A DNA stretch of 64,000 nucleotides, taken from Kiritimatiellaceae bacterium (lineage in GTDB: Bacteria > Verrucomicrobiota > Kiritimatiellia > Kiritimatiellales > Tichowtungiaceae). Where the stretch lies: the NCBI GenBank assembly GCA_013141415.1, contig JABFQY010000003.1, positions 124,001-188,000 on the forward strand. Reading direction: 5' to 3'. The notes beneath the pieces are model-generated. The model saw only the letters and a list, made by a program, of their open reading frames with translations, was not told where the DNA came from and did not search any database. Made by a program: the position numbers and the translations under genes. Of the stretch, positions 34,493 through 56,355 are shown one piece after another; within the stretch, counting starts at the first letter, position 1; each line of letters begins with the position of its first letter.

Positions 34493-34541
34493 TGGAGTGC
34501 GCAGGCTTGCCTGCGCTTTATTCACCGAAGCTTGCTTCGGC
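34493..34541. repeat. Palindromic repeat, TGGAGTGC family
   Basis: TGGAGTGC is followed by GCAGGC-TT-GCCTGC (34501-34514) and CCGAAGC-TT-GCTTCGG (34525-34540), two short hairpins in the leader of the DUF1456 gene. The TGGAGTGC head also begins the repeat at 56257. Confidence 0.6.
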
Positions 34542-34563
34542 TGATTTAAAAAAGGACAACATA

Positions 34564-54259: not shown

Positions 54260-55147
54260 TCATTTCTGGCAGTGAGGACAAAAAACGGTGGTGCGCTGGA
54301 CGATCTGGGTTTTGTGAAGCGGCTGGCCGCAGACAACGCAGGGCTGTCCGGCGCGGCCATAGACTTTGACTTTTTCGCGATGGCCGCCAGCTTCGCCATT
54401 GAGATCGACATAGTTGCCCTGCCCATCACCGAGCGACGTTCCTTTGTTGCGCACACCGGCTTTGATCACCTTCGTCACCGCTTTATAAAGCGCCAGCTTT
54501 TCGGCGTCACTCAATGTCCCGGACTTCCGGCACGGATCGAGCCGCGCTTCAAACAATGCTTCGTCGGCATAAATGTTGCCGACACCCGCCACGAATGACT
54601 GGTCGAGCAAGAGCGCCTTCAGCACTTTGTTCTGATTCTCTAGCGCTTTACGAAACTGTTTCTGTGTCACCGTCAGCGCGTCCGGCCCGAGGCCTGCAAT
54701 TCTGGAGGGCGGACTTCGACGAGCTCTGTCGAGTCGCGCTCCGTCGCCGCCGGAAACGGTTTCGACGGAGCGAAACCCTCCCGGAACGAGCCGCCAGCGA
54801 CCGAATTTGCGCGGATCGCGGAAGTGCAGATTCAGTCCACCGCTCAGCTGAAGAATCGCGCGGTCGTGTTTCCCTTTTTTCAGCGCGCCCTGCGTCAGAT
54901 AAAATCCACCGGTCATCCGCAGATGCACCAGCAGGTTTTCTTTTCCATCCAATCGGAAAACCAGCCACTTTCCGTGGCGATCAATCTTTTGCAGCGTGCG
55001 GCCTTGAATCTGTTTGCAGAAAGCGGACGGCGTCAGCGGCTCAACGGTACGCGGCCATTCGATATACACCTTTTCGATGGTTCGCCCTTCCACACCGGCG
55101 GCGCAGAGCTGGCGACGAATGGTTTCAACTTCTGGTAACTCTGGCAT
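54260..55147 (-). CDS. mutM: Formamidopyrimidine-DNA glycosylase with in-frame repeat insertion
   Basis: 295 residues; typical Fpg is ~270. It opens MPELPEVETIRRQL, giving the catalytic Pro2/Glu3. LLVHLRMTGGF, LHFRDPRKFGRW, the DQSFVAGVGNIYADEALF helix-two-turn-helix and a C-terminal zinc finger (CVVCGQPL, then CPHC) are present. It excises 8-oxoguanine and formamidopyrimidines. Residues 123-148 (between RWRLVP and SRIAGLGPDAL) have no counterpart in the family and are encoded by a 78-bp palindromic element. Removing them restores a normal 269-residue enzyme. Confidence 0.95.
   Translation of the reverse strand: MPELPEVETIRRQLCAAGVEGRTIEKVYIEWPRTVEPLTPSAFCKQIQGRTLQKIDRHGKWLVFRLDGKENLLVHLRMTGGFYLTQGALKKGKHDRAILQLSGGLNLHFRDPRKFGRWRLVPGGFRSVETVSGGDGARLDRARRSPPSRIAGLGPDALTVTQKQFRKALENQNKVLKALLLDQSFVAGVGNIYADEALFEARLDPCRKSGTLSDAEKLALYKAVTKVIKAGVRNKGTSLGDGQGNYVDLNGEAGGHREKVKVYGRAGQPCVVCGQPLHKTQIVQRTTVFCPHCQK
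54704..54781. repeat. 78-bp palindromic element inserted in frame in mutM
   Basis: The ends are GGAGGG (54704-54709) and CCCTCC (54776-54781). Inside, GACTTCGAC pairs with the imperfect GTCGAGTC, and CGCTCCGTCG pairs with CGACGGAGCG. The length is exactly 26 codons, and mutM stays open across it. It replaces nothing recognisable, so it is an insertion that is translated as part of the protein. Confidence 0.75.
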
Positions 55148-55170
55148 CTGAAAATTCCACTTTCAGAAAT

Positions 55171-55218
55171 GTAGGACAGGCATCTTGCCTGTCTAGACAG
55201 GCTGGAAGCCTGTCCTAC
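55171..55218. repeat. 48-bp palindromic repeat overlapping the mevalonate decarboxylase stop
   Basis: It begins GTAGGACAGGC at 55171 and ends GCCTGTCCTAC at 55218, with an inner GCCTGTC-TA-GACAGGC palindrome. The final CTAC supplies the TAG stop of the minus-strand gene. It lies between that gene and mutM, both on the minus strand. Confidence 0.75.
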
Positions 55219-56198
55219 GTTAAAAACGGGTTGACGATTTGGGCGTTAGGAAAAATCTTCTTCACGGCGCGGGTGTCTTTTTCAAGGAAGAGCAGTTTCA
55301 GATTCGGGCCGGCATCCATGGTGAAATAAACCTCAAGGCCGTCTTCGCGCGCCTGCCAGACTTTCTGCATCAGCGCGACCGACTGCGGTTTCCAGTAGCA
55401 GAGCGGCGGCCACGCCGCCAGCATAGTGGCGTGCATCGCCAACGCGTTATTCTCGGCGGTTTTGCCGAGCATGGAGAAATCCTGCGCGGCAATCGCAGTA
55501 CGCAATTCGTCAAAGTCACAGTCGGCCTGCGCGGGCCACGCTTCATAAAGTTCCGACGTTTCAACCGTGCGGTTCATGCCGTCGGTCGAACCGGTTTTCT
55601 TCTTGGACTTGGAAACTTCGAGGACGCCAATCCGCAACTCTTTCCATTCTGCGGAAATCGGTTCGGCGTAGCTGTCCATGCCGTCGGCGCGCACACCGGC
55701 ATGCCAGACGGCAAAACCGTCGTAGAGCGAACGGGCCGCACTGCCGCTACCGAGCCGTGCCAGCATGGAAAGTTCGCGCGGATTAAATCCCCAGCCGAAC
55801 AGCTGATCGAGCGCTTTGACCAAGGCGGCGAAGCCGGAGGCCGACGATGCCAGTCCGGCGGCGGTCGGAATATTGTTTTTGGTTCGGACTTCGAAGAATT
55901 GTCCTTCGGCGCGGAACAGGTTGAGATATTTCGAGAGCCGGTCGGCGAAATCCGCCGGAGCCGGTTTGCCGTTCAGAAAAATCCGGTCGGCGGTTTTGGC
56001 GAACTTCACCACGGTGTGCGTGCCGAGTTTACCAAGCGAAATGGAGAGGCTCGAATTAACCGGCAGGTTGAGCTCGGCGTCACGCTTGCCCCAATATTTG
56101 CAGAGCGCGATGTTGGCGGGCGCAAACTCCTCGCCGCGTGTTACTGGCTTTCCGGAAGCCCGCTTGAGCATTAACTTAACGAATTGTTGGCGTGTCAT
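55215..56198 (-). CDS. mvaD: Diphosphomevalonate decarboxylase
   Basis: 327 residues; makes isopentenyl diphosphate from mevalonate diphosphate. GHMP-type features: FAPANIALCKYWGKRDAELNLPVNSSLSISL, the ATP loop TKNNIPTAAGLASSASGFAAL, LARLGSGSAARSLYDGFAVW and the C-terminal VYFTMDAGPNLKLLF. It implies a mevalonate route to isoprenoids, seen in a minority of bacteria; the other pathway genes are not in this window. The N-terminus has a ~20-residue extension before the core. The stop codon lies in a palindromic repeat. Confidence 0.93.
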   Translation of the reverse strand: MTRQQFVKLMLKRASGKPVTRGEEFAPANIALCKYWGKRDAELNLPVNSSLSISLGKLGTHTVVKFAKTADRIFLNGKPAPADFADRLSKYLNLFRAEGQFFEVRTKNNIPTAAGLASSASGFAALVKALDQLFGWGFNPRELSMLARLGSGSAARSLYDGFAVWHAGVRADGMDSYAEPISAEWKELRIGVLEVSKSKKKTGSTDGMNRTVETSELYEAWPAQADCDFDELRTAIAAQDFSMLGKTAENNALAMHATMLAAWPPLCYWKPQSVALMQKVWQAREDGLEVYFTMDAGPNLKLLFLEKDTRAVKKIFPNAQIVNPFLT

Positions 56199-56256: not shown

Positions 56257-56355
56257 TGGAGTGCTCCGGCAAACAAAGTGCGACGGAGCTTTTCCCTTCA
56301 AAGGAACGTCGCAACAAAAAAAGCGGCCTCGCGCTTCGCTTGCGTCCGCACTCCA
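56257..56355. repeat. 99-bp palindromic repeat, TGGAGTGC family
   Basis: The ends are TGGAGTGC (56257-56264) and GCACTCCA (56348-56355), a perfect 8-bp inverted repeat. Smaller inverted parts inside include GCTCCG/CGGAGC. It lies 21 nt before the nth start codon and creates a false N-terminal extension of that gene. Confidence 0.65.

Follow-up and report, generated by a model that had tools for sequence, protein, structure and literature searches.

By what route did a 78-bp palindrome come to lie within the reading frame of a DNA repair gene, and what became of the gene that carries it? The window analyzed here (the whole stretch of 64,000 nucleotides) belongs to a Pontiella-like bacterium and harbors a mutM (fpg) gene, whose 295-aa open reading frame (ORF) scores 257 bits against the MutM/Fpg profile NF002211 of NCBIfam (cut-off 212) and contains all three Pfam domains of MutM. 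It is the one full MutM found in the genome, a second match being a REPIN copy on contig C6. The original prediction had placed a palindromic element at positions 54704-54781, within mutM, and both its exact location and its fold statistics bear this out. The features of the locus, in window positions, are as follows:

54260..55147, minus strand: mutM (fpg), 295 aa, from ORF call and profile matches
54704..54781, no strand assigned: 78-bp REPIN insertion encoding MutM residues 123-148; GGFRSVETVSGGDGARLDRARRSPPS
54704..54751, plus strand: REP 1, GGAGGGCG...GCGCTCCGTCGCCGCC, interrupted by the inner hairpin
54712..54735, plus strand: extra 24-bp imperfect palindrome, GACTTCGACGAGCTCTGTCGAGTC; missing from the 54-bp copies
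54752..54757, plus strand: 6-nt spacer GGAAAC between the REPs, read from the sequence
54758..54781, minus strand: REP 2, GGAGGGTTTCGCTCCGTCGAAACC, with GGAG tag, 7-bp stem, and CTCCGT loop (equal to G000:C3:178758-178781 in genome coordinates)

Folded as DNA, the 78-bp element reaches z = -4.1 and none of 200 shuffles folds equally well, and as RNA it reaches z = -4.05, so that the palindrome is not a product of chance; in its fold, an outer GGAGGG/CCCTCC stem closes two inner hairpins. The palindromic insert is free of stop codons in the mutM reading frame, and the predicted addition of 26 in-frame residues holds (residues 123-148), the proposed boundary being off by one Ser. We considered a stop-free design as a special adaptation of the repeat and rejected it: the element is open in all six frames, as are 64% of the shuffles of this GC-rich sequence, and over the 78-bp and 54-bp copies 64-77% of shuffles are equally open.

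The mutM element is a REPIN made of two inverted GGAG-tagged REPs (24+6+24 bp), one arm of which holds an extra 24-bp hairpin. The REP unit measures 24 nt and consists of a GGAG tag, a 7-bp stem, and a CTCYGT loop (pattern GGAGGGNNNCGCTCYGTCGNNNCC), such that an inverted pair with its 6-nt spacer amounts to 54 bp, versions of 48 bp being devoid of the spacer. Inverted pairs of REP hairpins at short distance, dispersed in multiple copies, are what defines a REPIN and what is found here; every copy starts with GGAGGG instead of bearing the GTAG tetranucleotide, and the family is therefore not filed under GTAG REPs. Across relatives, 40 distinct REPs display 24 different 5' arms, and if tag and loop are held constant, 26 of these 40 have variable arms that pair completely vs. 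0.16 expected by chance: the REP hairpin is kept by compensatory changes. The inner 24-bp palindrome likewise differs between the two 78-bp copies by a compensatory A-T to G-C change. A REPIN of another family, GTAGG, lies at window positions 55168-55221, in the gap that separates mutM from its upstream neighbor, roughly 20 bp ahead of the start of mutM.

The genome search for further copies returned a second 78-bp copy located between genes (94% identity over 79 bp, E 7e-29) as well as three copies of 54 bp, the family thus being both in-gene and intergenic. The pattern of a single REP half matches 15 times in the genome, against 0 matches of the reversed control, and is present in 29 of 58 relatives with control matches of about zero. 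In two of these relatives (G048 and G049), GGAG REPs are mostly extragenic, and of some 40 copies that could be placed about 3 fall within coding sequence; G049 alone carries about 84 of them (L311-L330), mostly extragenic, many at contig ends and in a longer composite repeat. One in-frame copy, of 48 bp and itself enclosed by another palindrome, is found in an AddB-like nuclease of the window genome; another, in G013, lies in a NERD/zinc-ribbon protein named from its sequence alone. At the AddB-like gene (L006, G000:C5:90755-90864), the GGAGGG REPIN sits inside a GTAGA REPIN, both in frame, and the gene carries three further REPINs. The proposed relationship to the repeats at 34493 and 56257, on the other hand, did not survive, since neither was recovered by searching with the element (E up to 10) or by the REP pattern, and only the GGAG tag is common to them. 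These repeats (34493-34545 and 56257-56355) are GGAG-tagged palindromes with GGAGTGC heads, otherwise unrelated in sequence to the mutM element.

Comparison with the MutM of sister species, mostly known from metagenome assemblies in this genus, exposes a clean insertion. Between the strand that follows DPRKFGRW and GLGPDAL, the same-genus relatives L071, L073, L074, and L075, among others, have a five-residue loop (15 nt) and no insert. Here the loop flanks around the insert measure 6+9 nt, which matches the 15 nt of each empty site, and the insertion is thus exactly +78 bp without target duplication. Together with the copies between genes, this clean empty site upholds the idea that an intergenic repeat family entered a coding region in frame. 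In the MutM comparison, relatives and distant bacteria lack the insert, one near relative excepted. With other copies of the element present as well, neither of the outcomes that the original prediction had named as refuting it came about.

This exception, Pontiellaceae Prado239 (L072), is the sole other carrier found and holds the 54-bp form at the same mutM site. With the inner 24 bp left out of the comparison, the two inserts are identical at 53 of 54 positions, when the mutM genes of the two genomes are 74.7% identical (p about 3e-6 if the insert had diverged like the gene), and the mutM site of the nearest relative, L071, is empty. The tree leans toward grouping L072 with L073 (82/96), and holding the window genome and L072 together is not rejected by the AU test, either without the long branch L076 (p 0.145) or with it (p 0.26 for DNA, 0.12 for protein). 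A large adhesin-like protein of the window proved useless as a species marker. The common 6-nt spacer and the similar right flank favor a single origin of the mutM inserts, whereas the 53/54 vs. 74.7% identity and the empty nearest relative favor two origins or a later homogenization. The same-site insert of Prado239 does not fit a simple one-off insertion, and its near-identity may stem from repeated insertion at the same site, from one old unchanged insertion, or from local exchange. No match to a RAYT (REP-associated tyrosine transposase) was found in the Prado239 assembly, which is incomplete.

In the window genome, the Pfam domain Y1_Tnp occurs at 11 places. One gene, at C6:123614-124069, is a RAYT according to profile NF047646 (91.9 bits vs. 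a cut-off of 80), its Pfam score falling just below the cut-off (22.1 vs. 23), and it is bordered on both sides by the GGAG REP, at 123549(-), 123586(+), 124080(-), and 124118(+), where three of the four REPs have up to two mismatches to the pattern. Relatives of this RAYT in G018, G014, and G047 adjoin REPs of the same GGAG pattern. Because the C6 RAYT is flanked on both sides by the same REP, RAYT-driven dispersal is the likely origin of the mutM element, and the C6 gene is presumably the transposase that moved it. Some RAYTs of relatives (L188 in G008, L200 in G025, L195 in G047) themselves hold in-frame REPIN-like inserts, all at one position just before WQRDFWDTQ, and at L194 (G024), L197 (G017), and L200 (G025) the RAYT reads as the C-terminal portion of a longer ORF, which is ThiD-like in two genomes and otherwise CobQ-like.

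We consider it very probable that a RAYT-moved REPIN occupies the mutM loop and is translated into 26 extra, flexible residues. The REPIN would have entered mutM as a DNA copy, its cognate RAYT (a Y1 HUH transposase, G000:C6:123614-124069) most likely cutting and joining a hairpin intermediate of single-stranded DNA, and the copy would have landed in the loop before the H2TH domain of MutM. There it would have persisted because of this site, of a length divisible by three, and of the absence of an in-frame stop, the repair enzyme being translated with the 26 additional residues. The GGAG tag counts against the involvement of a RAYT, the RAYT-linked REPs described so far bearing GTAG, and this difference, together with the terminal inverted repeats GGAGGG/CCCTCC, could instead suggest a MITE of another (DDE-type) insertion sequence. 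Such an origin appears very unlikely in view of the missing target-site duplication and the exact gain of 78 bp over empty sites of constant length, of the make-up of each half as a hairpin with conserved loop and tag, and of the REPs found on both sides of a RAYT and next to its relatives in other genomes too.

What the enzyme does with these residues can be approached through its predicted structure. The AlphaFold2 model of the insert-bearing MutM (mean pLDDT 88.7, below 50 only at residues 128-148) depicts an intact MutM fold in which the insert is a low-confidence loop predicted to be unstructured, and the nearest PDB folds are MutM-DNA complexes (1r2y, TM 0.83/0.90). Residues P2, E3, K60, and R285 and the zinc cysteines are intact. 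The 26 added residues are probably floppy, the loop is presumably exposed at the surface, and the protein presumably still works, the insert itself being probably neutral parasitic DNA. Could selection rather have kept it, as a part of MutM that offers a new surface for binding or as an RNA hairpin that adjusts the expression of mutM? That a second species retains a near-identical copy at this very position would speak for selection; we nonetheless judge it very unlikely, since L071 and others do without the insert, its peptide is the mere translation of a repeat found in unrelated proteins as well, and the loop is predicted to be disordered. Ordinary length variation of a MutM loop, which does vary across bacteria, is refuted to near certainty by the 94% identical intergenic copy and the 15 REP matches vs. 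0 in the control; an assembly or binning artifact, conceivable for a genus known here mostly from metagenome assemblies, is just as negligible given an assembly of seven contigs (95.5% complete, 0.21% contaminated) and the insert at the same site of the independent Prado239 assembly.

The RAYT-moved REPIN of mutM can be set against known systems. It resembles REPIN/REP-RAYT systems (Nunvar 2010, PMC2817692; Bertels and Rainey 2011, PMC3116915) in its inverted pairs of short tagged hairpins, its many dispersed copies, and a RAYT flanked by the same REP, but differs by its GGAG instead of GTAG tag, by its extra 24-bp hairpin, and by being translated within a gene when REPINs were described as extragenic. 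In-frame REPs have a precedent, Di Nocera 2013 (PMC3733652) describing them in genes of several species, many of them repair genes, with most of the GTAG cases in Opitutus terrae (Verrucomicrobiota), REP dimers that add 20-30 aa, and a same-site case in Xanthomonas recB. Hence, in-frame REPs are of a kind already known from that source, with which the mutM dimer shares its in-frame position, a repair gene as host, and the Verrucomicrobiota, and from which it departs by its GGAG tag, by one more hairpin, and by the series of empty, 54-bp, and 78-bp versions at one site; in the section of PMC3733652 consulted, mutM is not among the genes named. The original prediction also likened the element to Rickettsia palindromic elements (RPEs) in an unrelated lineage, and this likeness is borne out by a palindromic repeat that lies in frame here and also occurs between genes of the genome. 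RPEs (reviewed in Delihas 2007, PMC2229807, which reports that the Rickettsia guanylate kinase Gmk carrying one is active) are also palindromic, stop-free, and in frame in conserved proteins, but they are longer (105-146 bp) and have no dedicated transposase known, and the RPE families re-examined in PMC3733652 carry a CGTC tag vs. GGAG here. REP/REPIN plus RAYT is the better parallel.

The GGAG family is not alone in entering host proteins. Two further REPIN families of the window genome, GTAGAYGCGACGCC (68 REPs) and GTAGGACAGGC (44 REPs), each with its own RAYT flanked by that family's REP, are in frame in coaBC, tilS (twice), prmC (twice), metG, and a Mur ligase, and also in a photolyase, a HAD hydrolase, a lipoate ligase, and the AddB-like protein; Pfam domains span the insert in coaBC, tilS, the HAD hydrolase, and the AddB-like protein. 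In a non-exhaustive survey of 77 REP groups with a codon-usage score, no clear frame-breaking case was seen.

Transposase genes themselves are translated inside host genes of this genome:

G000:C3:504538-507657 (L308): PriA::RAYT, ORF of 1040 aa, complete RAYT in frame with family-A REPs
G000:C3:517196-519136 (L309): XseA::RAYT, ORF of 647 aa, RAYT with GTAGG REPs
G000:C7:47786-49939 (L310): B12-binding radical-SAM::RAYT, 718 aa, RAYT in frame

In all three ORFs, Pfam places Y1_Tnp between domains of the host protein, and each RAYT is edged by REP-like sequence of its own family, the border in the radical-SAM protein being read only from a repeated border peptide on a longer stretch. The radical-SAM borders look like a fourth REP family. 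PriA::RAYT occurs in 8 genomes of two families (L308, L363-L368, L375, L378), when the PriA of several relatives has no RAYT, and XseA::RAYT occurs in 3 genomes, including G012 and G007 (L309, L384, L385), when the XseA of other relatives lacks it. Where synonymous change is unsaturated, the dN/dS of the RAYT part is 0.04-0.19, and the HUH motif is kept in all RAYT parts compared. In the PriA::RAYT of G003 (L365), the tyrosine of YIxxNP reads His (KFQQHIEDNP), and this transposase is possibly inactive. We found no description of RAYTs translated inside host genes in the open-access literature searched, and the parts of PMC3733652 consulted report no RAYT gene inside another ORF; in Quentin 2018 (PMC6006769), unexpectedly long members were discarded as fusions or annotation errors.

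The mutM insertion is thus a variant of known in-frame REPs, to which this lineage adds RAYTs inside essential genes. It allows one to trace how a REPIN invaded a repair gene in frame, with a probable transposase in hand, in a deep-branching lineage, and the same MutM site in its empty, 54-bp, and 78-bp versions makes a testable set. More broadly, there is about an even chance that the interior of essential genes serves REP/RAYT systems of Kiritimatiellia as a stable home, with RAYT domains under purifying selection in PriA (8 species, two families) and XseA (3), and with REPINs spreading in frame, from there or from free copies, into MutM and other proteins. If true, neither a frameshift nor a careless deletion could remove a transposase inside an essential protein without harm to the host. 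Transposase genes housed in PriA and XseA across species would then be a new persistence route for a bacterial selfish element, and they bear on why RAYTs of low copy number endure for such a long time.
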